Of a stretch of DNA of 64,000 nucleotides, positions 1 through 22,513 are shown piece by piece. Position numbers and translations under genes: made by a program. Origin of the DNA: a bacterium (GTDB taxonomy: Bacteria; Oederibacteriota; JAAXVQ01; JAUVAV01). Under the pieces are notes generated by a model. The model was not told where the DNA came from. It ran no database searches and worked only from the letters and a program-made list of their open reading frames with translations. Position 1 is the stretch's first letter; each line of letters starts with the position of its first letter. The stretch is from NCBI GenBank assembly GCA_021108215.1, contig JAIORK010000002.1, positions 1 through 64,000 on the forward strand. Direction: 5' to 3'.

Positions 1-223
1 TTACGCAAAAAGGTCTTCTGAGTTGAATGTGTCGCACTATAAGTTACAATTCACCTTTGATTATCAAACCCCGAAACAGCATTGCATTTTAAATCCCGGC
101 GTGGGATAATTTCCCCGGTTTTCATTCGTTTTCACTTAAAAAAATTAAAAATTATCATAATAAAGATACCCGAGTTTGAATCAAACATGTAGGGGGGGGA
201 ATGGCACCTGAATTTGGAATGAG

Positions 224-446
224 TTATCGTGCTGGCGCGAACACGATGGACAGCCTGCCCGGCGAATGCCGGGTAAGTCCATCAATGGAGCGAGTAAAAA
301 TATCGCCGCCCCGACCGGAAGAGATATACAAGCATCGGGAGGCTTCGCACAAGGCGAACATCTCCCGACAAAAATACCGCGGGCTGCCTGCCCGGCGTAC
401 CGTGTCCGGCGAATGCCGGATGCCGGGTAAGCCTGTGGATTTTTAT
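224..446. repeat. GC-rich dispersed repeat, mosaic copy in a gene leader
   Basis: About 40 bases at 226-270 (TTATCGTGCTGGCGCGAA...) recur at 6671-6712, and the block at 380-446 (core CCGTGTCCGGCGAATGCCGG) recurs at about 6700-6770, inverted at 26311-26352, and degenerate at 43213-43290. The repeat runs to within a few bases of the ATG at 453, so it has probably replaced the native leader of that gene. It is open in frame with the downstream gene, but the translation is repeat-derived. Bases 1-200 are AT-rich and hold no gene or convincing promoter that I can see. Confidence 0.7.
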
Positions 447-452
447 CCGACG

Positions 453-1799
453 ATGAAAAAATCACTAAGCTGCATTTTGTTTGTCGTCGCTTGTTTGCTG
501 ATGTTTCGCAGCGGTTGGGCTGACTGGAGTTATAATTATGATACCGCCTGGATGGATGATTTTAGTCAGGGAGCGCCGGATACCCAGCCAAGTCGCTGGC
601 AGGATGCCGACAATGGCGGGCGGGAAGTTGAACTGATTTACAGTTATCAGGATTCTTATGCGGCGCTAACCAGATCCGCTGAAACCATGGAAACGGGGGA
701 TGTTTTCTCAGAAAACATCCACTGCAATGTGGATGTTTTTGATACCGTGGAAATTCGGGTTGTGGATTCCATTTCTACCAGTGTGACATCATGGAGTATT
801 GGTTTGCAGGAAAGCAGTGGTGATAGGCGCTACCACATTTTGCATGACTTCACCGGGGCCACCGGGACATTTTCCTTCCACATGCGCGATATGACCGGGT
901 GGTCCGGGACGCAGGATTTTAGTATTCGTCTTGCCATGAAGGGTGCTGTGGGGGAGTATTTAGTGATTGACTATGTCAGCATTTTTAGAAATCCAACAGA
1001 CAAAAAGTCCTTCTGGCGTGAGGATTTCGTGGGAGAACCCAATACTCAGATCAGATCATGGTGGGACGAGACCGAGGACAATACGTTGAATGCTGAGATT
1101 CGTTATTCTGATTCAACCCTGGCATCCTCGGGTAATATTGAACTTATTGATGATGGCGGTAATTCCCTGGCGCCTTGGGGCAAAGTCCTCTCGCCGGGCA
1201 TTATTTGGGATACTGAAGTGTATGATCACATCGAAATGCAGATTACCAGTGTGGCAATCAATACTTCCTGGCAATTATGGGTGAGAGAGTTGGGCAATGG
1301 CTGGCCCGGAGTCTCGATAACAGCGGGTTCCGGTGACGGGGTATTTACGTTTGATGTGCATGATATACCGGGCTGGCTGTGGAGTGGGCCGACCTTGATG
1401 GCATTTGAATTGTATATTGAGGGGACGCAAGTAGGTGTGAATTATGATCTTGATTATATACAGGTTTACCGTCCGCAGGCAACGCCAACGCCGGTTGTCC
1501 CTGTCCCGACACCCAGCCCTACGGCAGCTGTTTTTCCTCAGGGAGGTTTTGCCACCCCCAATCCTTTTTTGCCCAACCGCGGAGAGAAGGTCTTTTTTAA
1601 TTTTATCCTATCCGGAAGTCAAAGCGCATATACCATCAGGATTATGAATTTGCAGGGCCGGATTGTGAAAAAATTAGCATCGAAGAATGAATGGGATGGA
1701 CGGGACAATCAAGGTCGTTTGTGTGAGGGCGGTATTTATATTTATCAGATTGAGTCGGGGGATAAACGGGTGAGCGGAAAACTTGTACTTATTCATTGA
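453..1799 (+). CDS. exported surface protein with FlgD/T9SS-like C-terminal domain
   Basis: The 448-residue product begins with a clear signal peptide (MKKSLSCILFVVACLLMF, cleavage near GWA-DW). Two related beta-rich segments follow, at about residues 25-180 and 185-325. Each opens with a W..DF...P.TQ...W motif and ends in a D-Y-[IV]-x-[IV]-[FY]-R strand, so they look like tandem jelly-roll, CBM-like domains. A Thr/Pro linker (about 330-350) leads to a final ~80-residue domain with PNPF, an RIMNLQGR strand, WDGRDNQG and GIYIYQI, typical of FlgD-Ig/T9SS type A sorting-like domains. The same tail closes the protein at 62217-64000. An in-frame ATG at 201 would add 84 residues of repeat DNA, so I chose 453 for the signal peptide, although no good ribosome site precedes it. 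It overlaps the next gene by 4 bases. Ligand unknown. Confidence 0.75.
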   Translation: MKKSLSCILFVVACLLMFRSGWADWSYNYDTAWMDDFSQGAPDTQPSRWQDADNGGREVELIYSYQDSYAALTRSAETMETGDVFSENIHCNVDVFDTVEIRVVDSISTSVTSWSIGLQESSGDRRYHILHDFTGATGTFSFHMRDMTGWSGTQDFSIRLAMKGAVGEYLVIDYVSIFRNPTDKKSFWREDFVGEPNTQIRSWWDETEDNTLNAEIRYSDSTLASSGNIELIDDGGNSLAPWGKVLSPGIIWDTEVYDHIEMQITSVAINTSWQLWVRELGNGWPGVSITAGSGDGVFTFDVHDIPGWLWSGPTLMAFELYIEGTQVGVNYDLDYIQVYRPQATPTPVVPVPTPSPTAAVFPQGGFATPNPFLPNRGEKVFFNFILSGSQSAYTIRIMNLQGRIVKKLASKNEWDGRDNQGRLCEGGIYIYQIESGDKRVSGKLVLIH

Positions 1800-3181
1800 C
1801 AAGGGCGGTAGTCGGTTTGAAAGTTTGGGAGTCACTAAAAAAATGGAAGCAACTCAGATTGCTCTTTATCGGCGCGGGGATTGGCGGGCTCATGATCGCG
1901 GTCGTAGGATCTATTTATGTCAATTTACAGGCCATGGAGCAAGATCAGGTTTTGGAATACCGGAACACGGCCATGAAATTAAGCGACCTGACCATGAATT
2001 TTTATCTCAAAGGCCAGTATGAAAATATCGAGGATATGATGAAGGTACAAACCCAAACTTCAGCCATTCAATACATGGCATTTAATATGGGCGGCCAACC
2101 CCGCTACACAGCCGGCAATGGCTCTAATTTGAAAATGACGGAAAAGATTCTTCGGCAAACAGGGGCTGCGGAAATAAAAATAATCCGCAAACAGCGGTAC
2201 GTTTATTTAAATATTCCTTTTGTCGAAGCGGAAGATGTGATCCAAAAGCAGAGCAGTTTATTGGTGGTTTTTTCTCTGGAGGAATTTCAAAAAAATAAAA
2301 AAAGTATTCTTTGGTCGATTGTCGGTATTGTCAGCCTGGTAACCGGATCGGTCGTTCTCTTTTACCTGCTGGCTAAGACCTCGCATCAACTGCAGGAAAG
2401 GAATCGGGAGCTGGCGGAAACCAGTCGGAAACTCAAAGTGGAAGAACAGACCAAGACCGGCATGATCAAGGCCATTGCGCATGATGCTTTGCACTATGTC
2501 ACCGTGATTCAGATGATTAATGATAATTTAAAAGCGCAGGCAAAAAATACGAAGCAAGCAATGGATATCCTGCCTTTTGTCAATGACATTATAGAAAGCA
2601 ATGGTTCACTGACCAAGCTGTTGGAGGACCTTAAATACAATGAGTACCTCAGTCGTGGTTTGGTGATTGAAAATCCTGTAAAAATCCAATTTGTTGAATT
2701 TCTCAGCACCATTCTTACCAGTTTGAAAGAAATGTTTTCCAAGAAAAACATTCAGTGTGAGTTTTTTCATGAAAATCCGACTGCGTATGTTTTTGTTGAT
2801 CGCGAATTGATCAAACGGGTGGTGTTTAATCTGCTGCACAATGCATTTAAATATACCCGGCGGGACAGTAAGATTAAGGTATGGTGCCGGCAGGAAGCGG
2901 ATAAGATTGTGACCTTTATTCAGGATGCAGGGGCGGGGATTCCGGAAAAGCAATGGGAAATTATTTTTGATCCTTCGGTCAGACTTGCAGACAGTGATTT
3001 TGTCCGGCCGGAAGACAAACGCGGTACGGGTTTGGGGCTGACTAATTCCAGAAAATCCGTTGAATTGTATCAAGGGAAACTGGGGGTGTATAAAAGCGCG
3101 AAAAATATTGGGACGACTTTTTACTTTTCGCTGCCGCTGGTGCCGGCGGAAAATGCAGGTTCGACAGGAGATGATCTATGA
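1796..3181 (+). CDS. membrane sensor histidine kinase
   Basis: The 461-residue protein has a first membrane helix at about 19-42, an extracytoplasmic sensor region of ~125 residues with no recognised domain, a second helix at about 169-190, a short coiled coil, and a dimerisation helix with the presumed phospho-acceptor His229 in an unusual box (AHDALHYV rather than HE.RNPL). The ATPase domain shows an N-box (NLLHNAFKY, about 345), G1 DAGAGI (377-382) and G2 GTGLGL (410-415). The start is uncertain: TTG at 1796 overlaps the previous stop, while TTG at 1817 has a better ribosome site (AAGGGCGG). It overlaps the response regulator by 4 bases, so the two are very likely a cognate pair and translationally coupled. 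Confidence 0.88.
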   Translation: MTRAVVGLKVWESLKKWKQLRLLFIGAGIGGLMIAVVGSIYVNLQAMEQDQVLEYRNTAMKLSDLTMNFYLKGQYENIEDMMKVQTQTSAIQYMAFNMGGQPRYTAGNGSNLKMTEKILRQTGAAEIKIIRKQRYVYLNIPFVEAEDVIQKQSSLLVVFSLEEFQKNKKSILWSIVGIVSLVTGSVVLFYLLAKTSHQLQERNRELAETSRKLKVEEQTKTGMIKAIAHDALHYVTVIQMINDNLKAQAKNTKQAMDILPFVNDIIESNGSLTKLLEDLKYNEYLSRGLVIENPVKIQFVEFLSTILTSLKEMFSKKNIQCEFFHENPTAYVFVDRELIKRVVFNLLHNAFKYTRRDSKIKVWCRQEADKIVTFIQDAGAGIPEKQWEIIFDPSVRLADSDFVRPEDKRGTGLGLTNSRKSVELYQGKLGVYKSAKNIGTTFYFSLPLVPAENAGSTGDDL

Positions 3182-4584
3182 ATAGCGTGTTGGTGGTGGA
3201 TGACGATCCCATTATTGTGTCAAATATCATTAAAGGATTTGAAATGGAGCGGTTTGCCGCCGAGGGAACTTCGGATTACCGCGAAACGATCCGGATTATA
3301 GAATCAAAACATCCGGATATTGTTATCCTGGATGTTTTCTGGGGAAACAGTGAAGATAGCTTTGGCATTGATGTGCTGCGCGAGATTCGGGAAAAATGGG
3401 ACAAAGATGCTTTGCCGGTTTTTATGATTACCGCCCAGGGGGAATCAGCCCAGCTGCTTGAATCCATGAACCTGGGCGCGACGGATTTTATCAGCAAACC
3501 ATTTACCATCGCCGGGTTGATTGAACGGGTTAAACGGACCCTGGAAGAGGGCCCGGTCCCGCCGGACGCTGATCCGCTGGAACCTTGGAGTGAACGCATT
3601 GCGGGAAGATCAAAACCGATCTTGGATTTAACCATGAATGTGTGGAAAGCGGTTCGGGATAAATCAGATATACTGATTTTAGGAGAGACAGGTACGGGAA
3701 AAGACCTGGTGGCCAGAATGTACCATCAACAAAGTATGTGGTGCCAAAAACCGCTTAAAATTATTTATTGTCCCAATGTGAGCGATACGTTATTTGAATC
3801 ACAATTGTTCGGTCATCGCAAAGGGGCTTTCACCGGCGCAAATGAGGATCGGGCCGGTGATTTGCGGGAAGCTGATGGCGGGATTGCATTGCTCAACGAG
3901 ATTGGGGAGTTGACGGATATTCAACAACAGAAATTACTTAATTTTTTAGAGACCAAGCGGATTAAACCTTTAGGGAGTAATGAAGATATCCATCTTGATG
4001 TTGTTGTTTTGGCAGCCACCAACCGGCCTTTGAAAAAGATGGTGGATGAGGGGATTTTCCGGAATGATTTATATCAGCGTTTGAGTAAAGGGGTTTTACT
4101 GGAAACTCCGCCATTGCGCAAATACCTGGATGATATTCCGTATCTGGTGGAGCATATTATCCAGGAAATTAATCTGACTGCGACAAGTAAAATTCACGAT
4201 ATTGATAGGGATGTTATTGAGCTTTTTCAACAGTTGTATTGGGATGGCAATGTTCGTCAATTGAAAAACTGTATTTTTGAAGGCGCCCGGCGCTGTATTG
4301 GCGGGAAAATTATTTTGCATGATGTTGCCGGCTATATTGAACGACATTGCATCAAATTTCTTGATGAAGAAAAAATGCTCTGCTTGGAAGACTTTAACCT
4401 GCAATTGGATACGGCCTATCCGGTGTTTAAACAAAAACTAAAAGATGCCGAGAAAAAATATTTAGTCCATCATTTGCAAAAAAATAACTGGCAAGTTCCC
4501 AAAACTGCGGAAAGTATTGGGATCAAACATCGTCAGCGATTGAATGAATTAATGCGGGAATTTAAAATTAAGAAGGATCAATAA
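3178..4584 (+). CDS. NtrC-family sigma-54 response regulator with altered Walker B
   Basis: The 468 residues form a receiver domain (D8/D9 acidic pocket, phospho-acceptor D52, K in ISKPF), an AAA+ sigma-54 activation domain and a Fis-type helix-turn-helix at about 420-465. The AAA+ part has Walker A GETGTGKD (169-176) and an intact GAFTGA loop (216-221) for sigma-54 contact. Walker B reads GGIALLNEIGEL, so the usual Asp is Asn240 before Glu241; the other NtrC protein in this window (17193-18518) keeps the normal DE. It should respond to the kinase encoded just upstream and act at sigma-54 promoters; the nearest one is at 7014. Whether Asn240 permits ATP hydrolysis is an open question. Confidence 0.9.
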   Translation: MNSVLVVDDDPIIVSNIIKGFEMERFAAEGTSDYRETIRIIESKHPDIVILDVFWGNSEDSFGIDVLREIREKWDKDALPVFMITAQGESAQLLESMNLGATDFISKPFTIAGLIERVKRTLEEGPVPPDADPLEPWSERIAGRSKPILDLTMNVWKAVRDKSDILILGETGTGKDLVARMYHQQSMWCQKPLKIIYCPNVSDTLFESQLFGHRKGAFTGANEDRAGDLREADGGIALLNEIGELTDIQQQKLLNFLETKRIKPLGSNEDIHLDVVVLAATNRPLKKMVDEGIFRNDLYQRLSKGVLLETPPLRKYLDDIPYLVEHIIQEINLTATSKIHDIDRDVIELFQQLYWDGNVRQLKNCIFEGARRCIGGKIILHDVAGYIERHCIKFLDEEKMLCLEDFNLQLDTAYPVFKQKLKDAEKKYLVHHLQKNNWQVPKTAESIGIKHRQRLNELMREFKIKKDQ

Positions 4585-4626
4585 CAATCCATTTGTTTGG
4601 GAAATGATGAAGGAGTGTATGGGAAT

Positions 4627-6627
4627 ATGCTGAAAAAAAAAGGTTTCATTCGCTATGGTTCCGTTTGGCTGGGTATGTTTTTCCTGGGTGCGGGACTGAT
4701 GTTCGCAAGTCCGTCGCAGGCATATTTTATTGATGCGGTCTATGGCGTGCGTCCCGCCGGGATGGGTGAGGCGTTTGTCGGGATTGCCGATGATGCCAAT
4801 ACCGTGCTGTTTAATCCGGCGGGTATTTCCGGGATGAAACAGGTTGAGGTTATGGGGATGTATTCCAGGCTTTATATGAATTTGGATGACCGGCAGTATA
4901 CCGGCAATCAGGACCGCATTGGATACAGCCTGGCTGCAACTGTTCTGCCGTTTGCGGATGCCGTTGGTTCGTTTGGTTTGGCCTGGTCGCGGTTTTATTC
5001 AGAACTCTATGGAGAAAATCAGTTTTATCTATCTTATGCCAGAAATATTTTAAAGGCTTACAATATTGATTTAGGGATCACGCTTAAGGTGTTGAACTGG
5101 TCGGTTTCCAAGACGGCGTATACAGAGTCTTATTCAGAATGGGAGAAGTGGGGCGGAACCCTGGATGCAGGAATTTTAAGTTCGCCGTTTGAAGGATTCC
5201 AGGTGGGTATCAGTGCGGATAATCTGGTGCCGGCTGATATGGGATTGTATTCGGAGGCGATTACACCGGTTGCCTTGCGCGTGGGTGCGGCTTATTTTCT
5301 TCCGTGGGAAATAGACGGCTTGGAGTCGATGCGGACTCAGCTGGAATTGCATGCACGCAATGAAAGCTACAATATAAAATTCGGTTTTGAGACCTGGCTG
5401 GCAGGGAAGGAAATAGGGCTGCGGACCGGGGTGAATTTAGATCAAGTCACACTGGGGTTTAGTTACTGGAAGAAATTGTCCAGCCAGCCCTTTGAGCTGC
5501 ATTTTGACTATGCCTTTGCCTATCCTTTTTATGTTATGGAGACCATCGGATCCCACCGTGCCGGAGTGACACTGAGCTGGGACCCGCATTACTCCAGACA
5601 GCAGCTGGCAGCGGCAGTTCATCAGGCCACACAAGATAAGCAGGCTATTTCACGCAGACTGGAAGAGACCTCGCATGAGTTGGAAGCATCGGAAATGGAA
5701 ATTACCGGATTGGAAGAAAAAGTGAGTGCGATGCAGGAAGAACTTCAAAGAGCGAAACAAGCCAGACGGGAACGTCAGGCGGAGGCTGAGGTGCGTGCCC
5801 AAAAGTTGGATCGTGACCGGGCTGAGCAGTATCCGGTTAATATAAATCCTGTGATTGTGATTGGATATGAAACCAAATTATTATCCGATTATGCCTATAT
5901 TCAAGCGGTTCGTGAGCAGGTGGAAAAACTGGAGATATATTTGAAACAGCAAACCGGTTATACTTTTGTGCGCAGGGGATTTAGCAGCCCCGAGGAGATC
6001 ACCTATGCTTTTCAACAAGGCGAGATCGATATTGCCATCCCCTCCAGCGGTATTTTTTCCACCTTGTATAAGCAGGGGATTGCAGATCCGTTTTTAACCT
6101 TTACCTACCAGGGCAAGGATTTTCAGAAATACCTGTTGTTTGTCCGTGAAGATAATCCGATTATGACGCTCAATGAGTTAAAACAAAAAAAAGTGGGCTA
6201 TTTAAATTCATTATGTATCAAACGACTAGAACGTTACCTGTCCCAGAGCTTACCCAATTACCCTTCCGGTAAATTTTTCAAGACCACCCGGAAAATGGAT
6301 TCTGCCCGCGGGGGTATTATGGCGTTGCGTTTGCAGGACATTGATGTATTGGTGGGTTTGGAATATATCGAAACAATTTTACGGCGGGAAACAGAAGGGA
6401 ATCAGGGAATTCGTATTTTGGATAAATATGGCTTTGGACCCAACGCTCCCGTATTTATCCGCACGGGCTTGAGAGAAGACAAGCGGAAGAAAATTAAGCA
6501 CGTCCAGGATATTTTGCTCAATGCGCATACTGTTCCCGAATGCAGCAGTTTTATGAAATTTTTCTTTTTTGATAAAATTAGTTTGTTTCAGGAAGAAAAG
6601 TATGAGCAGTTTTTTAAAGATCAATAG
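4627..6627 (+). CDS. PorV-like outer-membrane barrel fused to PhnD-like binding domain
   Basis: This 666-residue protein has a signal peptide ending ASPSQA and three parts. Residues about 30-318 resemble the PorV/UPF0164 family of outer-membrane barrels, with the hallmark GVRPAGMGEAFVGIADDAN followed by FNPAG. Residues 319-398 are a charged coiled coil (KQAISRRLEETSHELEASE...). Residues 399-666 look like a PhnD/phosphonate-type periplasmic substrate-binding domain, with GEIDIAIPSSG, a lobe-crossing pattern and DIDVLVGLEYIE. The start at 4627 is preceded by AGGAG at 4611-4615; upstream TTG and GTG codons are less likely. It lies 42 bases after the response regulator gene, in the same direction. 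I infer a ligand sensor or capture protein tethered to the outer membrane. I do not know this combination as a described family. Confidence 0.78.
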   Translation: MLKKKGFIRYGSVWLGMFFLGAGLMFASPSQAYFIDAVYGVRPAGMGEAFVGIADDANTVLFNPAGISGMKQVEVMGMYSRLYMNLDDRQYTGNQDRIGYSLAATVLPFADAVGSFGLAWSRFYSELYGENQFYLSYARNILKAYNIDLGITLKVLNWSVSKTAYTESYSEWEKWGGTLDAGILSSPFEGFQVGISADNLVPADMGLYSEAITPVALRVGAAYFLPWEIDGLESMRTQLELHARNESYNIKFGFETWLAGKEIGLRTGVNLDQVTLGFSYWKKLSSQPFELHFDYAFAYPFYVMETIGSHRAGVTLSWDPHYSRQQLAAAVHQATQDKQAISRRLEETSHELEASEMEITGLEEKVSAMQEELQRAKQARRERQAEAEVRAQKLDRDRAEQYPVNINPVIVIGYETKLLSDYAYIQAVREQVEKLEIYLKQQTGYTFVRRGFSSPEEITYAFQQGEIDIAIPSSGIFSTLYKQGIADPFLTFTYQGKDFQKYLLFVREDNPIMTLNELKQKKVGYLNSLCIKRLERYLSQSLPNYPSGKFFKTTRKMDSARGGIMALRLQDIDVLVGLEYIETILRRETEGNQGIRILDKYGFGPNAPVFIRTGLREDKRKKIKHVQDILLNAHTVPECSSFMKFFFFDKISLFQEEKYEQFFKDQ

Positions 6628-6667
6628 TTCTTCCACGAACATAAAACCCAGCGGCACTGCCGGGACT

Positions 6668-6790
6668 GTTTTATCGTGCTGGCGCGAATACGATGGGCAG
6701 CCTGCCCGGCGTACTGTGTTCGGCGTACCGTGCCCGGCGAATGCTGGATGCCGGGTGAGCCCGTAGCATTTTTGTCTGGACAATACGATT
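6668..6790. repeat. GC-rich dispersed repeat, second copy
   Basis: The block matches 226-446: ATCGTGCTGGCGCGAA, CAGCCTGCCCGGCG and GGATGCCGGGTGAGCC all recur in order. It fills the first part of the 481-base gap between the PorV-like gene and the ECF sigma gene. The rest of the gap is AT-rich and carries the sigma-54 promoter at 7014. No gene is supported here. Confidence 0.65.
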
Positions 6791-7013
6791 GCCCCAAAGC
6801 GAGACGGACCGGCGCTTTAACCGGATTTTTTCTTAATAAGAAAATTGAAAAGTCATCCGCCTATTTTTCAAATGGGCTATTTCCTTTTGTTGTCACGAAA
6901 GTATTTCCATTCTCCCGAACGATAAATCTTTCCGAAATGAGCATGTTTACATACAAAAATTAACCCAGGAAAAAAAAACCTTAATTTATATAGTGAAAAT
7001 ATACCCTGAATTT

Positions 7014-7029
7014 TGGCACAAAAAATGCA
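7014..7029 (+). promoter_or_regulatory. sigma-54 promoter (-24/-12)
   Basis: TGGCACAAAAAATGCA has GG and GC exactly 12 bases apart, the diagnostic -24/-12 spacing, and differs from the TGGCACG-N4-TTGCA consensus mainly at the first T of the -12 box. It lies 80 bases before the ATG of the ECF sigma gene. An NtrC-type activator is encoded 2.4 kb upstream on the same strand. Confidence 0.7.
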
Positions 7030-7108
7030 TTGTATTAATATGCATGAAAAGTGACTTTTCATCCGATACCATTTCGTGCAGTAACCATTATGAGGGGGAC
7101 ATAAGGTT

Positions 7109-7738
7109 ATGCATACTCAAACAGATACACAACTTATTTTGGCTTTTAAAAACGGACAGCGGGCAGCGGGCGAGGAAATAACACAGCGCTATTATTCGAA
7201 AATTTTATTTATGTGTTCAAAGTATCTCAACTCGGTTCCGGATGGAGAGGATGCAGCGCAAGAAGTGTTTTTTAAAGTTATTGCAGAGAAAAAAATTATC
7301 TCTTTTCGCGGTCAATCGAAACTCTCCACCTGGTTGATACGCGTGGCAATCAATGTTTGCAAATCTCAGTTCCGTAACCGGAGTACCAAAAAATTGAATC
7401 TCATGGATCAAGAAGGCATGAATCTTATGGAAGAAACAGTGCCTTGTAAGCGGAAAAGTCCCGAAGAGAATTTTATTAAAGCAGAGATTCAGGAAAAAGT
7501 ACAAGATGCCATTGAAGGACTCCCCCGGAAGTGCAAAAAAGCCATGTATTCCATTTATATTCGTGATTACTCCTACAAAGAAGCTGCCAAAGAATTGAAT
7601 ATTCCTGTGAATATTCTTGGTGTACGTCTTATGTACGGAAGAAAATTGATATTTCAATTTTTAAGAAAAGAAATCCGACAGGATTGTTCGTTCGGGTTAC
7701 TGGATATCCATCCCAGGATACAGATGGCGCTGAACTAA
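7109..7738 (+). CDS. ECF-type RNA polymerase sigma factor
   Basis: The 209-residue protein has the two-domain sigma-70 family layout. Region 2 spans about 10-85 (DAAQEVFFKVI, then FRGQSKLSTWLIRVAINVC), and region 4 about 130-185 (GLPRKCKKAMYSIYIRDYSYKE). Region 4 is slightly unusual: LNIPVNILGVRLMYGRKLI replaces the commoner S.GTVKSRL.RAR. The start follows a GAGGGGG ribosome site at 7092-7098. No anti-sigma gene lies next to it. Transcription probably starts at the sigma-54 promoter at 7014, which would place one alternative sigma factor under another. Confidence 0.88.
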   Translation: MHTQTDTQLILAFKNGQRAAGEEITQRYYSKILFMCSKYLNSVPDGEDAAQEVFFKVIAEKKIISFRGQSKLSTWLIRVAINVCKSQFRNRSTKKLNLMDQEGMNLMEETVPCKRKSPEENFIKAEIQEKVQDAIEGLPRKCKKAMYSIYIRDYSYKEAAKELNIPVNILGVRLMYGRKLIFQFLRKEIRQDCSFGLLDIHPRIQMALN

Positions 7739-7916
7739 ACAAAGTCGGTTTCCGGTTTACTCAATGATTTTTAGCAATTATTCCATTCTTTTTTTAATTT
7801 GAAACAAATCTTAATTTAATACATACGCGTTGATACGGATTATGCATTTGTCCCATATGAATTATTAGGTTATACTTATCAGATTAAATAAAGCAATAAA
7901 ACCTGAGGAGACTACC

Positions 7917-8390
7917 ATGACTCAGTTGAAGGTCCGTGACCAGGCGCCGGATTTTACACTGGATGATCAATCAGGTGATAAAGTCAGATTAAGAGATTTT
8001 CGCGGGAAAATTGTTGTGCTCTATTTTTATTCCAAAGATGGTACGCCGGGATGTACCCGGGAAGCCTGCGATTTTCGTGATTATGAAAAAGATTTTACCC
8101 GCTTGAATGTGGTAGTGCTGGGGGTTTCCAGGGATAGCCGGGAAAAGCACAGGAAATTCATGGAAAAATACGGACTGCCGTTTCGGTTGCTGGCGGATGA
8201 AGAATTACATACATTGAAGGCCTATGGTGTATGGCAGATGAAAAAAATGATGGGGTGTGAATCCATGGGGGTTATCCGTTCCACCTTCGTTATCAATCCC
8301 ATCGGGAAAATTGATAAAATTTATTATAAAGTCAGGGTGGGCGGACATGTGGCCAATGTGCTGGATGAATTGAAAAAGGAGTTGCGGTAA
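7917..8390 (+). CDS. bcp: thioredoxin-dependent peroxiredoxin (Bcp/PrxQ type)
   Basis: The 157-residue cytoplasmic AhpC/TSA-fold protein reduces peroxides with thioredoxin. The motif GTPGCTREACDFRD holds the peroxidatic Cys46 and the resolving Cys51 five residues later, the PrxQ arrangement. Length is normal for Bcp. TGAGGAG at 7903-7909 is the ribosome site. Its stop codon shares one base with the trpD start, so the two genes are probably cotranscribed although functionally unrelated. Confidence 0.93.
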   Translation: MTQLKVRDQAPDFTLDDQSGDKVRLRDFRGKIVVLYFYSKDGTPGCTREACDFRDYEKDFTRLNVVVLGVSRDSREKHRKFMEKYGLPFRLLADEELHTLKAYGVWQMKKMMGCESMGVIRSTFVINPIGKIDKIYYKVRVGGHVANVLDELKKELR

Positions 8391-9460
8391 TGATCAGGGC
8401 GCTTATTGGCAAGGTGGTGGCAAAGGAAAATTTAAGCCGCGAGGAAGCCCGGGCCGGTATGGAATTTATCATGAACGGCGAAGCCACGCCTGCACAGATC
8501 GCGGCTTGGATAACCGGGCTGCGCATGAAGGGTGAATCTGTAGAGGAAATTACCGGGTGCGCTCAGGCCATGCGCAGTCTGGCCACGACAATACAGGTGA
8601 CCGGTGAACCGGTTGCACTGGAAAGCGACGGCAGCAACCGTGCTGAGGAAATTATTGTGGATACCTGCGGTACCGGGGGGGATGGTGCTCAGACATTTAA
8701 TATTTCCACTGCAGTGGCGTTTGTAGCCGCTGCCGGCGGATTGACGGTTGCCAAGCACGGGAACCGGGCGGTTTCATCCAAATGTGGGAGCGCGGATGTA
8801 TTGGAGGCGCTGGGTGTGAATCTGAAATTGACGCCGGCGCAGGTTCAGGCCTGTATTCAGGAAATCCGGATAGGTTTTTTATTTGCGCCGCTTTACCATA
8901 TGGCCATGAAGCATGCCGCCGGTCCGCGCAAGGAAATCGGGATTCGCACTATTTTTAATATACTGGGACCGTTGGCCAATCCGGCCGGAGCAACAGTACA
9001 GGTATTGGGCGTGTTTGATCCGGGGTTGACCTCGGTGATGGCGGCGGTATTAAAGGAGCTGGGGATACAACAGGCCATGGTGGTGCATGGTCATGGGACG
9101 CTGGATGAATTTTCTTTGACCGGCCCTACCACGGTGAGTGAATTAAAAAAGGGCGAGGTGAAGACCTACCAGGTTTTGCCTTCGGATTTTGGGATGCCGC
9201 AATCAGATGCAAAAGAATTGCGGGGTGGTACGGTGGAAGAAAATTCCGCGATTATTCTGGATATCTTCAAAGGCAAGACCGGTCCCAAGACCAATGCGGT
9301 GGTGATCAATGCAGCTGCTGTTTTTGTCGTGGCCGGTAAAGTTTCTGATCTGAAAAAAGGGGCTGAACTGGCACACGATGTCATTCAATCCGGGAAAGCG
9401 CTGGAGAAGCTGGAAGCCCTGATTGCTGTGAGTAAACGGATCGGTAGGGGCGATTCATGA
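8390..9460 (+). CDS. trpD: anthranilate phosphoribosyltransferase
   Basis: The 356-residue enzyme joins anthranilate to PRPP in tryptophan synthesis. The PRPP-binding motif DTCGTGGDG (91-99), NISTA, KHGNRAVSSKCGSADVLEALG and the GPLANP segment are all present. No other trp gene is in the window, so this is a detached pathway gene. The last codons and the stop are formed by a 28-base perfect palindrome (9444-9471), so the C-terminus GRGDS is repeat-derived. Confidence 0.95.
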   Translation: MIRALIGKVVAKENLSREEARAGMEFIMNGEATPAQIAAWITGLRMKGESVEEITGCAQAMRSLATTIQVTGEPVALESDGSNRAEEIIVDTCGTGGDGAQTFNISTAVAFVAAAGGLTVAKHGNRAVSSKCGSADVLEALGVNLKLTPAQVQACIQEIRIGFLFAPLYHMAMKHAAGPRKEIGIRTIFNILGPLANPAGATVQVLGVFDPGLTSVMAAVLKELGIQQAMVVHGHGTLDEFSLTGPTTVSELKKGEVKTYQVLPSDFGMPQSDAKELRGGTVEENSAIILDIFKGKTGPKTNAVVINAAAVFVVAGKVSDLKKGAELAHDVIQSGKALEKLEALIAVSKRIGRGDS

Positions 9461-10945: not shown

Positions 10946-13504
10946 ATGAAAATAATGCAAACGTTTAATGTAATTCCCACCTTGCCTGAGGAATTGGCGC
11001 CACTGCGGACCCTGGCATTTAATTATTGGTGGTGCTGGAATGCCGATGCCTTTAATGTTTTTCGGCATATTGCCGCAGATCTCTGGACGCGTTGCGGACA
11101 TAATCCAATTAAATTTCTTGGACAAGTTTCACAGGAAAGGCTTAAAGAGTTGACGCGGGATGAGGGATTCAAGTATCACCTTGATCAGGTTATGAAGAAT
11201 TTCAAAGGGTACATGGAAAGAAAAACCTGGTTTCAGAATCGCTGGCCGGAAGAAAAACCTGTTCGGATTGCTTATTTTTCCGCAGAGTTTGGGATTAATG
11301 AGGGGCTGCCGATCTATTCCGGCGGTTTGGGTGTTTTGGCGGGAGATCATCTCAAATCCGCCTCGGATCTGGGTGTGCCTCTGGTTGCCATCGGGTTGGC
11401 GTATCATCAGGGATATTTTCGTCAGTATTTGAACCAGGATGGCTGGCAGCAGGAACGGTATGCGGAAAACGATTTTTATAATATGTCAGCGATGTTAATG
11501 CGGGATGAGAAGAAAAAACCGATCATTCTGGAAGTGGATTTTCCGGGACGCAAAATTCAGGTTTGTATTTGGAAAGTGCAGGTGGGCAGGGTTCCGCTTT
11601 ATCTGCTCAGCACCAATCTTCCCGGTAACTCACCGGTTGACCGCAATATTACGGCCAAATTGTATGGCGGGGATAAAGAGCTGCGTTTGCAGCAGGAGTT
11701 GATACTGGGTGTGGGAGGCGTTTTAACCCTTAAGCGCTTGGAACTGCTTCCGGCAGTGACGCATATGAATGAAGGGCATTCGGCGTTTCTCGGCATTGAG
11801 CGCATCCGTTATCATATGGAAAATGACAAGCTTAGTTTTAGCGAAGCGCGTGAATTGGTGAAGGGGAGCAATATTTTTACCACCCATACGCCCGTGCCGG
11901 CTGGGATTGATATGTTTAGTTCCCAGTTAATTGAAAATTATTTTGTGCCTTACTTTGAAAAATTTGGTGTTTCTGCGCAGGAATTTTTGGCCATGGGCCG
12001 GAGAAATGCCGATGATCCGCATGAAAATTTTTCCATGGCGATTTTGGCGATTAATCTGGCAGCCAAGACCAATGGTGTGGCCCGGCTGCATGGTGAGGTT
12101 TCCCGGAAAATGTGGCAAAATCTCTGGCCCTTGTTGCCGGAAGATGAAGTGCCGATTTCGCATATTACCAATGGGGTGCATGTGAATTCCTGGATTTCAA
12201 TGGAAATGTCGGAGTTGTTTGACCGGTATCTCGGTCCCCGTTGGGTGGAGGAACCGGGTGATCAGAAAATTTGGGGAAGGATTATGGAGATTCCTTCAGC
12301 GGAATTGTGGCGGACGCATGCCCGCCGCCGGGAGCGTCTGGTGGGGTATGTAAGACGCAAATTGCGTCAACAGCTTAGTGACTGCGGCGCGCCGGCTGAG
12401 GAGATCGAGATGGCGTCACAGGTGTTGGACCCGGAAGCCTTGACCATCGGATTTGCCCGTCGTTTTGCCACCTATAAACGGGCAACCCTGATTTTTAAGG
12501 ATATTGAGCGCTTCACGAAGCTGATTTCAGACAAGGACAGGCCGATTCAAATTATTTTTGCCGGTAAGGCCCATCCCCATGATGAACCCGGTAAACGGTT
12601 GATTCAGGAGATTGTCAAGATTGCCCGTCAAGCCGGATTGCGACGGCATGTTGTTTTTTTAGAGGATTACGATCTTAATTGCGCCCATTATTTGGTTCAG
12701 GGCGTGGATGTATGGCTGAACAATCCCCGTCGCCCATTGGAGGCATCCGGGACATCCGGGATGAAGGCGATTTTCAACGGTGGTTTGAATTGTTCGATTC
12801 TGGACGGCTGGTGGGATGAAGGTTATAACGGCAAAAACGGCTGGGCGATCGGCCGGGGTGAAGAATATGATGATAATGAGTATCAGGATCAGGTGGAAAG
12901 TTCGGCTTTTTATCAGATTTTGGAGAATGAAATGATTCCGCTTTTTTATGACCGGGGACCGGATAATATTCCTGAAAACTGGTTGAAAATGATGAAGCGT
13001 TCTATGACCAGTTTGGGTCCGGTTTTTAATACCAACCGAATGGTCACGGAGTACACTGAACGGTTCTATGTTCCTCAGACCGAGCGGTTGGAGCGGCTCA
13101 AACTTAACAACTGTAAAATTGTCAGAGACCTGGCTGCTTGGAAGAAAAGAGTCACGCAGGAGTGGCCGGCGGTGAAGGTGGAAAAGGTTTATGATATTCC
13201 TGAAAAGGAGCATACTGTTGGGGGTGAATTACCGGTGAAAGCGACGGTTAATCTCGGCGGGCTTTCCACCGAGGATGTTCAGGTCGAGATTTTTTACGGT
13301 GCGATTGATGAGAAGCAAGAGATGCATGCCACCCGGACGGTGGTCATGAATCCTGAGAAAGATACCCAAGGCGGCAAGGTGACCTTTACCGGAAATATCC
13401 CCTGTGTGACAACCGGTAATCACGGATTGACCATTCGGGTTTTACCGCGGCATGATGATCAGATTCACCGTTTTGAGACGAATTTAATTACCTGGGGAGA
13501 TTAA
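10946..13504 (+). CDS. glgP: alpha-glucan (glycogen/maltodextrin) phosphorylase, GT35
   Basis: The 852-residue enzyme releases glucose-1-phosphate from alpha-1,4-glucans. The N-terminal ~110 residues (LAFNYWWCWNADAFNVF) are the DUF3417 module of the shorter bacterial/archaeal GlgP type. The catalytic core contains FSAEFGINEGLPIYSGGLG, HTPVPAG and the pyridoxal-phosphate lysine K607 in SGTSGMKA, followed by NGGLNCSILDGWWDEGY. A C-terminal ~120-residue beta domain follows the core. ATG 10946 has AGGAG at 10934-10938. It stands alone between a repeated leader element and a terminator, so it is probably a single-gene unit. Confidence 0.95.
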   Translation: MKIMQTFNVIPTLPEELAPLRTLAFNYWWCWNADAFNVFRHIAADLWTRCGHNPIKFLGQVSQERLKELTRDEGFKYHLDQVMKNFKGYMERKTWFQNRWPEEKPVRIAYFSAEFGINEGLPIYSGGLGVLAGDHLKSASDLGVPLVAIGLAYHQGYFRQYLNQDGWQQERYAENDFYNMSAMLMRDEKKKPIILEVDFPGRKIQVCIWKVQVGRVPLYLLSTNLPGNSPVDRNITAKLYGGDKELRLQQELILGVGGVLTLKRLELLPAVTHMNEGHSAFLGIERIRYHMENDKLSFSEARELVKGSNIFTTHTPVPAGIDMFSSQLIENYFVPYFEKFGVSAQEFLAMGRRNADDPHENFSMAILAINLAAKTNGVARLHGEVSRKMWQNLWPLLPEDEVPISHITNGVHVNSWISMEMSELFDRYLGPRWVEEPGDQKIWGRIMEIPSAELWRTHARRRERLVGYVRRKLRQQLSDCGAPAEEIEMASQVLDPEALTIGFARRFATYKRATLIFKDIERFTKLISDKDRPIQIIFAGKAHPHDEPGKRLIQEIVKIARQAGLRRHVVFLEDYDLNCAHYLVQGVDVWLNNPRRPLEASGTSGMKAIFNGGLNCSILDGWWDEGYNGKNGWAIGRGEEYDDNEYQDQVESSAFYQILENEMIPLFYDRGPDNIPENWLKMMKRSMTSLGPVFNTNRMVTEYTERFYVPQTERLERLKLNNCKIVRDLAAWKKRVTQEWPAVKVEKVYDIPEKEHTVGGELPVKATVNLGGLSTEDVQVEIFYGAIDEKQEMHATRTVVMNPEKDTQGGKVTFTGNIPCVTTGNHGLTIRVLPRHDDQIHRFETNLITWGD

Positions 13505-17192: not shown

Positions 17193-18518
17193 TTAATGAA
17201 CCAAGCCGTATTTCTGAAGTTTATATTGTAATGTACTGCGCTGGATACCCAGCAATTTGGCTGCTTGGGCCTGATTGCCGTTGGTTTGTGCCAATGCTTC
17301 TTCGATAAGTTTTTTTTCCATGGTTTCAACCATCTGATTTAAATTTTGATCACCCAAGCGGATTTCATCACTGGGTTTGGAAAGTGCCTGGTCGATTCGC
17401 AGGGTGTCGCCGGTAGAGAGCAAAACAGCCCGCTCAATGATATTTTCAAGTTCGCGAACATTGCCCGGCCAATGGTATTCACGCATGAGTCGTTCACTGA
17501 AACGGCTGATTTTAAATATGCGATCCCCCTGGTGTTTGCGCAGGAAAAAATCAGACAGCAGCAGGATGTCATCGCCGCGTTCCTTTAAAGGCGGCAGGGG
17601 AATAGGGAAGACATTCATGCGCCAGTAAAGGTCCTCGCGGAATTTTCCTTCCCGGACCATGGCCGGCAAATCGCGGTGGGTGGCGCCGATGACCCGGACA
17701 TCAACCTGGACGGGATCATTGCCGCCGACACGTTCAAATGTTTTGTTTTCCAGAAAGCGGAGCAGCTTGACCTGCATTTCCAGCGGAATTTCACCTAATT
17801 CATCTAAAAACAATGTTCCCTTGTGGCATATTTCCAGGCGTCCTTTGCGCTGCGCGGAGGCGCCGGTGAAGGCGCCGCGTTCATGGCCGAAGAGTTCACT
17901 TTCAATGAGTTGTTGGCTGTAGGCGGCGCAATGCACGGCAATGAAGGGTCCGTTGGCACGCGGGCTGCTGCTGTGCACCGAGTGCGCGATGAGTTCCTTG
18001 CCGGTCCCGGTCTCACCTGTGATGAGCACGGTGGAGTCGGAGGATGCGACCTGCTCAATCAAACGCGTCACCTTTTTAATCGGTTCTGAATTGCCGATGA
18101 TACTTCCGAATTTGGCATCCGCCTGCTCCTGGAGAAAACGATTTTTGTCGACCAATCGCTTTTCATTGAGAATCCTCTCGACTTTCACTTCAACCTCTTC
18201 AAGCCGGAAAGGTTTGACAACGTAATCATCTGCACCGCGCTTCATTGCTTCAACTGCGTTTTCCACGGAACCATACGCAGTCATGAGTATCACGGCAGTG
18301 TCGTGGGTGTTTTCCTTAATGTGATCCAACAGATCCAGACCGGATTTTCCCGGGAGGCGGAGATCGGTGAGCACAAGATCATATTCGCGGTTTTGAATAT
18401 CAGTGATGGCGGTCTCGCTGTCAGGTGCGGTTTTAATTGTAAATCCTTTTTCAGCCAGCGATCGGGCCAGCACTTCGCGGATGTTTTCTTCATCTTCGAC
18501 AATCAGAATTTTTTCCAT
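17193..18518 (-). CDS. NtrC-family sigma-54 response regulator
   Basis: The 441-residue protein has a receiver with D9, D52 and K in VVKPF, and an AAA+ domain with Walker A GETGTGKE (167-174), GAFTGA and a canonical Walker B GTLFLDELGEI. A Fis-type HTH ends it (ALAQTNGNQAQAAKLLGIQ, then STLQYKLQKYG). AAGGAG seven bases before ATG 18518 fixes the start; a longer open frame runs back into the kinase gene but is not used. Four bases separate it from the kinase gene, so they are cotranscribed. Its likely target is the sigma-54 promoter at 22498-22513 at the head of this gene group. Confidence 0.95.
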   Translation of the reverse strand: MEKILIVEDEENIREVLARSLAEKGFTIKTAPDSETAITDIQNREYDLVLTDLRLPGKSGLDLLDHIKENTHDTAVILMTAYGSVENAVEAMKRGADDYVVKPFRLEEVEVKVERILNEKRLVDKNRFLQEQADAKFGSIIGNSEPIKKVTRLIEQVASSDSTVLITGETGTGKELIAHSVHSSSPRANGPFIAVHCAAYSQQLIESELFGHERGAFTGASAQRKGRLEICHKGTLFLDELGEIPLEMQVKLLRFLENKTFERVGGNDPVQVDVRVIGATHRDLPAMVREGKFREDLYWRMNVFPIPLPPLKERGDDILLLSDFFLRKHQGDRIFKISRFSERLMREYHWPGNVRELENIIERAVLLSTGDTLRIDQALSKPSDEIRLGDQNLNQMVETMEKKLIEEALAQTNGNQAQAAKLLGIQRSTLQYKLQKYGLVH

Positions 18519-18522
18519 CGGG

Positions 18523-19929
18523 CTACTCCTTGTCCTGGGGAAGGGTAATACAAAACGCGGTACCGCGTTCCGAAGGTGCGAGCGTGAGCGTACCGCCGTG
18601 CGCTTCGGCAATGTTTCGGGAAATGGCCAAGCCCAGTCCTGTACCATTTGATTTTTTTGTAAAAAAAGGCTGAAAAATTTGTTGCGCCTCCTCCGGGGCG
18701 ATCCCGGAGCCGTTATCACTGATTTGCAGGGTGACGGCTTGGGGTTCGCGCTGGACTTCAATGGCAACTTCGCCGTTTTTACCTGCCGCCTGCCGGGCAT
18801 TGCAAATGAGATTGCGCAGCATGGTCAAAAGACCGGTACGGTCAGCCTGGAGTCCTTTTGACGTTTCTGGAAAATGAATATGGCAATGCGGATCTATTTC
18901 CCGGATCGCTGTTTTGAGATCAGAAAAACCAATAAATGCAAGCAACAGTGTGGGTTGCCGGGCATAGGCCATGACATCCATGACAATCAGGTCCAGTCGT
19001 CTAATCTCGTTGAGAATACGGTTCACCAGATCCTGGTTATCCGCAGTCGCCTGAATCGCAGGCTGACGGGCAAGCAATTCGGCCAACCCGCTGATGGCGC
19101 TGAGGGGATTGCGGATTTCATGGGCGATTCCGGCAGAGAGTACTTTTAATTCGGAAATCCTGCGTTCGTGCTGGTCCCGCTCCTGTTGGGTTTTGTTTTC
19201 CAGCGCAAGTGTCATTTCATTAAATGACCGGGAGAGGAATGCCAGCTCATCACTGCCGCTGACCGGGATCTGGATGCTGTTTTTGCCGGCCTGCATGGCC
19301 CGAAAAGCATTGGAGAGGCGCGAGAGGCGCTTGCCCAGCCAAAACGCCATACCGAAGCTCAGCCCCAGCGCCAGAATAATGCCGCTGATGAGGATGATGG
19401 TTCTGCGGATGCGGACGCGGTCAATCATCGCAAACATTTCCGATCCGGCGGAGAGGCGGAGTAAATGGTTTTCATCCAACCGGGTCAATACCATTTTATG
19501 CCACGCCCCTTGGGTACTGCGATGGAGCCGGGTCAGAGCACCGTTGGGATTTTGTATAATCGTGTCGCTTATTCCGGTGGCCGTGCCGGGTGTCCAGTCA
19601 TGGGTATCGATTTTGACCAAACCCTGGTTGGTCAGGATACTGATTCGGTCCAGGAGATTGGTTTGGGCAAAATTATTGAGCTTTGCAACATCATGAATAT
19701 AAATCCGGGTTGTCTCATCATCCGGGAGATAGCCCAGCATGGTCTCCAATGGCACGTAGTTTTTTGCCAGATTGGAGACCATGGTCAGGCGGGAGGTCAG
19801 TTCACGGTCCAGGGCAGTGAGCAAAAGATTGCCCGCAATCCAGGTGTAAAGCAACAGGGTTGGGAGCAGTACCCCTAAAATAGCGGTGAGTAGCTGCCAT
19901 TTTAATGACCAGCGAAATGATTTTATCAT
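18523..19929 (-). CDS. NtrB-like membrane histidine kinase with HAMP domain
   Basis: The 468 residues comprise TM1 (~12-36), a periplasmic sensor region of ~140 residues, TM2 (~178-200), a HAMP domain (~200-250), and a HisKA domain with the standard GIAHEIRNPLSAISG box. The HATPase domain shows NLICNARQAAG, ISDNGSGI and a TGLGLAISRNIAEAHGG G2 box. This is the layout of NtrB/AtoS/ZraS-type sensors. It is encoded directly upstream of the NtrC-like regulator and downstream of two cell-envelope proteins. An envelope signal is therefore likely, but the ligand is unknown. Confidence 0.93.
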   Translation of the reverse strand: MIKSFRWSLKWQLLTAILGVLLPTLLLYTWIAGNLLLTALDRELTSRLTMVSNLAKNYVPLETMLGYLPDDETTRIYIHDVAKLNNFAQTNLLDRISILTNQGLVKIDTHDWTPGTATGISDTIIQNPNGALTRLHRSTQGAWHKMVLTRLDENHLLRLSAGSEMFAMIDRVRIRRTIILISGIILALGLSFGMAFWLGKRLSRLSNAFRAMQAGKNSIQIPVSGSDELAFLSRSFNEMTLALENKTQQERDQHERRISELKVLSAGIAHEIRNPLSAISGLAELLARQPAIQATADNQDLVNRILNEIRRLDLIVMDVMAYARQPTLLLAFIGFSDLKTAIREIDPHCHIHFPETSKGLQADRTGLLTMLRNLICNARQAAGKNGEVAIEVQREPQAVTLQISDNGSGIAPEEAQQIFQPFFTKKSNGTGLGLAISRNIAEAHGGTLTLAPSERGTAFCITLPQDKE

Positions 19930-21362: not shown

Positions 21363-22457
21363 CTAACGCCAGGGGCGTTTAGATTCATCTTCAAAGACAT
21401 CAACCAAGTGCATGAACTGGGAAACCGTATCAATGTTCCGGCCTTCAAATTCAGTTGCAGTCATGATTCTTTCCTTGTAGGTATTGAAAACCAGGGCGGA
21501 AAAATTTTCTACAAGATTTGCCAAGTCATTAAGAAAGTTATCAATGGAATCATATCGCCACTGACGCAGTCCGCCTTCTTCGCTGATCATGTAGTCATCA
21601 ATTTGTAGAAAGGTGTCATCATCAAAGGTATAGATAATCCGGGTGGCCAGCAAATTTTTATCAATGTAATCAACGGAAGTATGCTTGATGCCGTCCCATT
21701 CAATATCTTCGGCAGAGGTGAGCCGCTCATGGCCGGCTTTATGAATATCATTGACCGAAAGATAGGCGGATTTTTCATAGAGTTCAAATTGACTGAAACC
21801 GGAATTCCATTCCGGTGAAAAGTAATCCACGCCATAATTGACCTTGTCAAGCATGTTGGAATATTCGATCGCTTCTTCAGTCAAATAAATCGCCGGTCCG
21901 TTTTCTCCGGTATGTTTCCATGTTTTGGCCCAGACACCATGGATGTTTTTTGGAAGGATGTCATTGAAAGTGGCCAGATAATTCACATAGTCCAGCCGGT
22001 TGTCACGCATCGTGAGGTTGAGGAACTGGACCTGGTTGGCTTCCGGGCGGAGCACATATTCTTCCATCCGGACCCGGTTACCGTGCATATCCGTCAGGAC
22101 TTTTCCCAGGTGAAGGTCTATGTTTTTCTCCGCCATGGCCAGTTGGAGGTCCTCATGGCCGCGTACGCGGTCTTCGAGGTTTTCCTGGCGCAGGGCATCC
22201 GCCATGGTGTTTTCGCGGTTTAATTCATCCAAGCGGAGTACGTTGCGAATGCGCTCAACTTCTTGGGAGCGTTTTTCCTCAATTTCGGTCTGGGTGGGTG
22301 CGACAGCCTCGGCATCGCTGGTGAATTTTTCTACAATCGTGTTTTCCACTTCTTGCGGGGTTCGGAGGTCATGAATCGGACGGATCGCCCAGGCTGAGGT
22401 GGAGATCAGGCAGATCATACTCAATCCAAGAACCAATTTGAAAACTGTGTTTTTCAT
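21363..22457 (-). CDS. exported protein under sigma-54 control, unknown
   Basis: The 364-residue protein has a signal peptide (MKNTVFKLVLGLSMICLIST, then SAWA), a highly charged helical part (~45-115) and a mixed, Tyr/Asn-rich remainder that mentions no known motif. ATG 22457 is preceded by AAAGGAG; a start 15 codons earlier would run into the promoter and is rejected. It is the first gene after the sigma-54 promoter and is followed by a strong terminator, so it is probably the most highly expressed gene of the group. A soluble periplasmic or surface role is likely; function unknown. Confidence 0.75.
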   Translation of the reverse strand: MKNTVFKLVLGLSMICLISTSAWAIRPIHDLRTPQEVENTIVEKFTSDAEAVAPTQTEIEEKRSQEVERIRNVLRLDELNRENTMADALRQENLEDRVRGHEDLQLAMAEKNIDLHLGKVLTDMHGNRVRMEEYVLRPEANQVQFLNLTMRDNRLDYVNYLATFNDILPKNIHGVWAKTWKHTGENGPAIYLTEEAIEYSNMLDKVNYGVDYFSPEWNSGFSQFELYEKSAYLSVNDIHKAGHERLTSAEDIEWDGIKHTSVDYIDKNLLATRIIYTFDDDTFLQIDDYMISEEGGLRQWRYDSIDNFLNDLANLVENFSALVFNTYKERIMTATEFEGRNIDTVSQFMHLVDVFEDESKRPWR

Positions 22458-22497
22458 TTTTTTTTCTCCTTTCGAATTAGTTTTCACAGTTATATAA

Positions 22498-22513
22498 TGC
22501 ACAAAGCATGCCA
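22498..22513 (-). promoter_or_regulatory. sigma-54 promoter (-24/-12)
   Basis: On the minus strand TGGCATGCTTTGTGCA has GG and GC 12 bases apart and matches the sigma-54 consensus well. It lies 41 bases before the ATG at 22457. The kinase and NtrC-like activator genes of the same strand follow downstream. Confidence 0.75.

Follow-up and report, generated by a model that had tools for sequence, protein, structure and literature searches.

Near the start of the 64,000-nt stretch of Oederibacteriota DNA studied here (the window; contig JAIORK010000002.1), the plus strand carries, in this order, genes for a surface protein, a histidine kinase and an NtrC-type activator, a gene fusing an outer-membrane barrel to a long helix and a PhnD-fold lobe, a sigma-54 promoter, and the gene of an extracytoplasmic function (ECF) sigma factor (Table 1). 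XSR systems, known from arsenic sensing, are built from three parts: a binding protein X, a kinase, and a regulator that depends on RpoN (PMC5908839). We hold it to be an evenly balanced proposition that the present locus encodes a relay of the XSR type whose X lobe is attached to a PorV-family outer-membrane barrel through a helix of ~12 nm, the barrel being paired with a surface protein that bears a type IX secretion system (T9SS)-type tail. An original prediction, made from the letters of this stretch, had named the kinase, the NtrC-type gene, the fusion, the sigma-54 site and the ECF gene, and open reading frames (ORFs), profile matches and promoter score place all of them where it had put them; it had missed the surface protein as well as the parallels to AioXSR/ArrXSR and PorA-PorXY-SigP. 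The window proteins were compared to domain and family profiles, models were built with AlphaFold2, and nearest structures were sought with Foldseek and in the PDB.

Barrel-lobe fusions recur beside kinase and NtrC genes

Eight genomes of the order to which the window's genome belongs were compared (loci labeled L0xx). Five of them encode barrel-PhnD fusions, nine including that of the window, the other eight being 28-37% identical to the window protein and stemming from loci in several genera. A kinase gene lies no more than two genes from the fusion in all nine cases and an NtrC gene beside it in eight; the ninth fusion (L044), with no NtrC gene seen, sits on an 8-kb contig. Other barrels in the same genomes have a kinase within three genes in 0/25 cases (Fisher p = 2e-8 for 9/9 vs 0/25, indicative only, owing to the relatedness of the loci). 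This neighborhood comparison bears out the proposed link of the fusion to the kinase and regulator. The distances within the part trees also correlate (kinase-NtrC 0.71, barrel-kinase 0.67, lobe-kinase 0.55; each p ≤ 0.001). A gene for a tail-bearing protein is found within three genes of the fusion at seven of the nine loci, mostly directly 5′ of the fusion or its operon. The order cargo-kinase-NtrC-fusion is shared by the window, L045 and L046, and the remaining loci read cargo-fusion-kinase-NtrC or fusion-kinase-NtrC.

That unrelated genes came to lie together by chance, or that the fusion was misassembled or misread, is barely credible. A repeat that flanks the block and has 46 matches in the genome (113-bp query) would provide a possible recombination site, but nine independent loci of such divergence, from several genera and with conserved gene sets and promoters, speak against an artifact, and these comparative data rule out chance adjacency.

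Within the order, six of eight genomes contain the lobe subfamily; a genome search of 37 further genomes from the phylum found it in none. In a sister branch (L043 3818-8333, L060 6318-10902 and L064 3-5687), a TolC-type OEP (PF02321) is encoded ahead of a free PhnD lobe, after which come a kinase, an NtrC protein and a single receiver, the latter followed by an ECF gene in L043 and L064. A 775-aa repetitive protein is encoded after the ECF gene of L043. Separately, L062 (2878-5283) and L063 (224-2674) have the lobe at the C-terminus of a different N-terminal region of ~560 residues that lacks a Pfam match.

A wider scan of public contigs was queried with one barrel peptide. Among the matches listed, contigs that match carry the labels candidate division FCPU426 or Firestonebacteria, and tail-bearing genes lie directly beside PorV-family barrel genes in many phyla outside the Bacteroidota (L078-L157). 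PorV-TPR fusions also occur among these matches (L105, L107, L114 and L122; Elusimicrobia and other metagenome-assembled genomes), each with a HAMP histidine kinase encoded immediately after it and a tail-bearing protein before it, possibly a parallel barrel-to-kinase design. Within the freely accessible papers, no description of a barrel-PhnD fusion was found.

Table 1 Features of the fusion locus in window coordinates
Feature	Position	Strand	Evidence
Surface protein ending in a C-terminal sorting tail of the T9SS type	201-1799	+	TIGR04183 2.9e-7, 30.4 bits, cut-off 23
T9SS-type tail, residues 450-531 of the surface protein	1548-1793	+	Lineage tail hidden Markov model, 4e-35
Histidine kinase	1796-3181	+	HATPase_c 4.4e-19; H-box AIAHD; motifs, hydropathy
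NtrC-type response regulator	3178-4584	+	REC PF00072 6e-21; Sigma54_activat PF00158 8e-51; PF25601; Fis-type HTH
Fusion of 666 residues (signal peptide, then PorV-like barrel, long helix and PhnD-fold lobe)	4627-6627	+	Profile matches, AlphaFold
PorV-family barrel, 14 strands, residues 33-318	4723-5580	+	NF033709 PorV_fam, AlphaFold strands
Single helix linking barrel and lobe, 78 residues, ~117 angstrom	5596-5829	+	AlphaFold
PhnD/ArrX/AioX-fold lobe, residues 409-665	5851-6621	+	PF12974 Phosphonate-bd 5.3e-17; Foldseek
Predicted sigma-54 promoter TGGCACAAAAAATGCA	7014-7029	+	14.5 bits; 0/300 upstream-region shuffles reach the score
ECF sigma factor	7109-7738	+	Sigma70_r2 PF04542 3.7e-10; Sigma70_r4 PF08281 9.1e-8

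Architecture of the fusion protein

The AlphaFold2 model of the fusion, built on a 14-sequence alignment (mean pLDDT 80.6, pTM 0.48), upholds the predicted three-part protein: it comprises 14 strands (residues 73-318), a helix (324-401) and an alpha/beta lobe of the solute-binding protein (SBP) fold (409-665), a hinge at 390-405 being modeled with low confidence. As pTM is low, the model does not give the placement of the two domains relative to each other. Residues 34-281 match PorV_fam (NF033709) at E = 6e-8. In a comparison with its relatives, the window barrel reaches 6.6e-9; its 35.8 bits fall short of the curated family threshold (90 bits), and 16 of 16 barrel relatives match the same profile at E ≤ 0.001. 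Judged by these matches, the barrel is related to the PorV/PorQ family and not a typical member of it. Searching the PDB with the barrel profile retrieved no relative, and the 50 Foldseek matches listed for the fusion contained binding proteins only and no barrel, so that the identification rests on the NCBIfam matches and the strand pattern. A 14-strand barrel of the FadL family is the architecture of PorV and PorP (PMC9143113).

At the site where the fusion carries its extension, paralogous barrels of the same genomes bear OmpA (peptidoglycan-binding) or TPR modules. The peptidoglycan-binding OmpA domains at this position argue that the C-terminal extension of the fusion, too, would lie in the periplasm. 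PorV-family barrel-OmpA fusions, each adjoining a tail-bearing gene, occur at L040 (7391-9109 and 10228-12000), L042 (7117-9351) and L047 (1729-3240), and look like fused anchors of the PorP+PorE type.

The lobe lacks the known oxyanion pocket

The Phosphonate-bd match covers residues 427-654 of the fusion (E = 5e-17). When the PDB was searched with a single lobe sequence, matches were weak (best 0.0016); a profile of the lobe family gave clear ones, the first being ArrX (6e-17) and AioX (3e-11). Foldseek likewise placed ArrX and AioX at the top, with ArrX as the best match (1.4e-16; TM-score 0.81 by target). Yet the residues that line the AioX pocket (Y88, C106, Y131, S161, S163, H192 and D210) are unconserved in 15/15 family lobes, the loss of D210 being the least certain, with an acidic residue one alignment column off, and glycine 164 of the oxyanion loop is deleted in all 15. 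The family keeps cleft-region residues of its own, among them a Gln at the position of AioX Tyr131, Arg193 and an (E/D)Y pair. The loss of the oxyanion-pocket residues leaves the originally predicted "solute-binding" function unsupported, and sensing of phosphonate or arsenic by the lobe is rejected. From its sequence, the lobe is best described as having sensor ancestry without the known sensor chemistry.

The lobe could instead belong to an ordinary ligand-sensing XSR, binding some new kind of small molecule in the periplasm and then docking on the kinase, with the barrel as an anchor or ligand port and the tail-bearing neighbor as output or bystander. The ArrX/AioX fold and the XSR gene set would fit, as would the conserved cleft residues and the barrel-free loci L043, L060 and L064, which keep the lobe with kinase and NtrC protein (and an ECF factor in L043 and L064); signaling from SBPs to kinases is also well known (PMC5908839, PMC5408782, PMC7386598). 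What makes this explanation unlikely, while still worth serious thought, is that the known pocket residues are gone from every family lobe and that the cleft residues vary even between close paralogues. Moreover, an anchor would leave unexplained why a cognate tail protein is encoded beside the barrel, and equally why the free lobe has an outer-membrane export protein as its neighbor. Because the pocket is lost and the pairing with tail proteins is conserved, the input is more likely to be the state of the surface protein and barrel than a solute in free form. The pocket loss favors contact over oxyanion sensing.

Predicted sigma-54 promoters precede the ECF genes

The sigma-54 site of the window lies 95 bp ahead of the ECF start. 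Scored with a weight matrix that is our own approximation of the published consensus, sites of at least 13.4 stand ahead of 6/6 ECF units (window, L039, L053, L056, L043 and L064, with those of L043 and L064 being receiver-ECF units), compared to 1/290 other genes with such a site within 150 bp (p = 8e-12). The sole background gene with a strong site encodes a free barrel and follows the L045 fusion immediately. RpoN is encoded in 8/8 genomes of the order, and a sigma-54-to-ECF relay has a precedent in HrpL (PMC5263251). This comparison supports the originally proposed step, in which the NtrC protein is predicted to act on the ECF gene through its sigma-54 promoter. Of the longer chain suggested at the time, running from ligand to kinase, NtrC protein, sigma-54 and ECF factor, the kinase/NtrC linkage and the predicted sigma-54-ECF step are supported, and the solute as its input is not. 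Directly beside the window ECF gene there is no anti-sigma gene, the next ORF encoding a peroxiredoxin (AhpC-TSA).

The promoter data also bear on the idea that the fusion itself takes part in export or anchoring at the outer membrane, its lobe recruiting periplasmic partners or cargo, while kinase and NtrC protein merely regulate expression and no physical signaling takes place. Sigma-54 sites ahead of the whole L046 operon and of the free barrel in L045 would agree with it, and so would the lineage's barrels that bear OmpA and TPR modules without kinases. We regard it as improbable: in the genomes compared, kinases accompany lobe-bearing barrels exclusively, the lobe stays with the kinase where the barrel is absent, and the nearest structures are sensors, not transporters.

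Kinase and regulator

The kinase is laid out as a transmembrane segment (22-40), a periplasmic domain (~45-165), a second transmembrane segment (175-193), a coiled coil, a DHp domain with His229 and a CA domain. Its AlphaFold model is weak (pLDDT 71.6, alignment of four sequences) and matches HK853 and other kinases in Foldseek; going by the order of its elements, the periplasmic domain of mixed helix/sheet topology may be sCache-like. In the NtrC protein of the window, the GAFTGA motif (3823-3840) and Walker A are intact.

The fusion locus L038 contains a second, divergent rpoN-like gene (11487-12851, minus strand; Sigma54_DBD, CBD and a weak AID), and the L038 NtrC protein has NAFNGA in place of GAFTGA; the two are possibly a matched pair of sigma-54 factor and activator.

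A proposed relay from the cell surface to the ECF factor

In the relay that we propose, the surface protein would be exported and its tail would dock on the barrel, as gene pairing together with PorV/PorP biology suggests; by the same pairing, the barrel is expected to bind the C-terminal tail. Docking, its loss or load on the complex would then move or deform the periplasmic lobe. Hanging at least 12 nm below the outer membrane, the lobe would reach and touch the periplasmic domain of the kinase. The kinase would phosphorylate the NtrC protein, a step for which the motifs are present and co-inheritance is shown, and the NtrC protein would open the sigma-54 promoter assigned to the ECF gene by comparison. 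Finally, the ECF factor would transcribe surface or envelope genes. The lobe thus probably reports to the kinase the surface-protein state of the barrel, and the relay may let the cell read surface events directly.

In its full form, the proposal is more tentative, and we rate its chances as somewhat short of even: a single outer-membrane protein with its own periplasm-crossing arm would pass the docking state by direct contact to a kinase, from there to a sigma-54 regulator and on to an ECF factor. This would constitute an outside-in receptor without TonB or anti-sigma factor, in which a T9SS-type barrel bears a lobe of the AioX type that has lost its oxyanion pocket; the Elusimicrobia PorV-TPR fusions next to kinases would be a parallel solution.

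Several observations weigh against the relay. Since the sister branch uses a free PhnD lobe beside a TolC-type OEP, the PorV barrel is not obligatory; at L055 and L056, no tail gene adjoins the fusion; the linker of L039 is proline-rich and not helical; and the lobe may hold a pocket for another ligand. The sigma-54 site of L045 precedes a barrel gene and that of L046 its own operon, neither preceding an ECF gene. In the regulator of the window, motif alignment reveals Walker B to read NE for DE, with Asn240 replacing the Asp, and GAFTGA is altered in several paralogous NtrC proteins: the degenerate loops GAFANA, GGHSQA, GAHSMA, GAFPQA, GAFGNA and GGFTDA are those of L043, L045, L053, L055, L060 and L064. 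The Walker B exchange and the altered loops mean that sigma-54 activation by the NtrC proteins is a prediction. The regulators of L043, L053 and L064 nonetheless lie ahead of ECF units whose sigma-54 sites are strong, and in L060 a strong site lies ahead of a receiver gene. Lastly, the secretion machinery does not amount to a complete T9SS of the known kind. The window's genome, which is not of the Bacteroidota, encodes a SprA/Sov translocon (a 2133-aa ORF, L158 3989-10387; TIGR04189 228.5 bits vs a cut-off of 200) and a tail-bearing C25 peptidase, and GldM (PF12081) is absent from 8/8 genomes of the order; a divergent secretion motor is possible.

Surface protein and other features of the window

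The tail of the surface protein scores over the curated threshold of TIGR04183, the profile of T9SS sorting domains of type A. Because positions 216-444 belong to an interspersed repeat, the true start of the surface protein is likely ATG 453, and translation from there yields the signal peptide MKKSLSCILFVVACLLMFRSGWA. The stop of the gene overlaps the kinase start. The repeat is GC-rich and occurs in the same orientation at 216-444 and 6663-6775, on either side of the surface protein-kinase-NtrC-fusion block; an Rfam search of window positions 1-9000 gave no match. Elsewhere, the window contains a second kinase/NtrC pair, of the ordinary AtoS/AtoC type (17196-19929, minus strand), another tail-bearing surface protein (62220-63998, minus strand; TIGR04183 over cut-off) and a sigma-54-like site, TGGCATGCTTTGTGCA, at 22513 (minus strand), 11 bp ahead of an ORF without NCBIfam match (21366-22502).

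Comparison with known systems

How surface information passes the outer membrane and periplasm to reach inner-membrane kinases is poorly understood, and natural variants with fused or free lobes and several linker types make this question testable. The locus further suggests that signaling lobes of XSR systems are usable without an oxyanion pocket and that T9SS-like parts of uncultured phyla come with dedicated signaling.

Like AioXSR, ArrXSR and ArxXSR, the window combines a PhnD-fold sensor, a histidine kinase and an NtrC-type response regulator, predicted to act with sigma-54, in one cluster (PMC5908839). Unlike in these systems, X is not a free periplasmic protein and is instead fused to an outer-membrane barrel, at nine loci; the fusion lobes lack the arsenite/arsenate pocket; and the output of the window is predicted to run through an ECF factor. 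Genes for molybdoenzymes were not seen at the window locus. The sister branch of L043, L060 and L064 is closer to AioXSR in one point, its X lobe being free. Some histidine kinases carry a PhnD-like lobe within the kinase itself, and the class of their response regulators differs from that of the window.

The nearest functional parallel, by analogy, is the PorA-PorV/PorXY-SigP pathway of Porphyromonas gingivalis, in which PorXY-SigP is driven by PorA, a tail protein that binds PorV (PMC7712824). Like the relay proposed here, it joins a tail-bearing surface protein, a PorV-family barrel, a two-component system and an ECF factor in one pathway. In Porphyromonas, by contrast, PorV is a plain barrel, the genes are scattered and sigma-54 is not used; PorX, a PglZ protein, binds directly to SigP, whereas the regulator of the window has a REC-AAA+-HTH build. 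The link from PorA to PorY is explicitly open, its authors concluding that something further has to connect the surface to the kinase (PMC7712824); here, barrel, arm and lobe form one polypeptide, encoded beside the genes for surface protein, kinase, regulator and ECF factor. The SprB-SprF and PG1035-PorP pairs resemble the present one in that each tail-bearing surface protein has a dedicated 14-strand FadL-family barrel (PMC9143113), and differ in having neither sensor lobe nor kinase.

The relay of Pseudomonas syringae from AatJ-AauSR to HrpRS and HrpL similarly links a periplasmic SBP, a kinase and regulator, enhancer-binding proteins, sigma-54 and an ECF factor, HrpL, which controls a secretion system at the end of the chain (PMC7386598, PMC5263251). 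It differs in that its amino-acid SBP has an ABC transporter of its own and is untethered to a membrane, and in the additional HrpRS step. In FecA-FecR-FecI, as proposed for the window, an outer-membrane barrel signals to an ECF factor; that system relies on a TonB-dependent receptor and an anti-sigma factor and involves no kinase.

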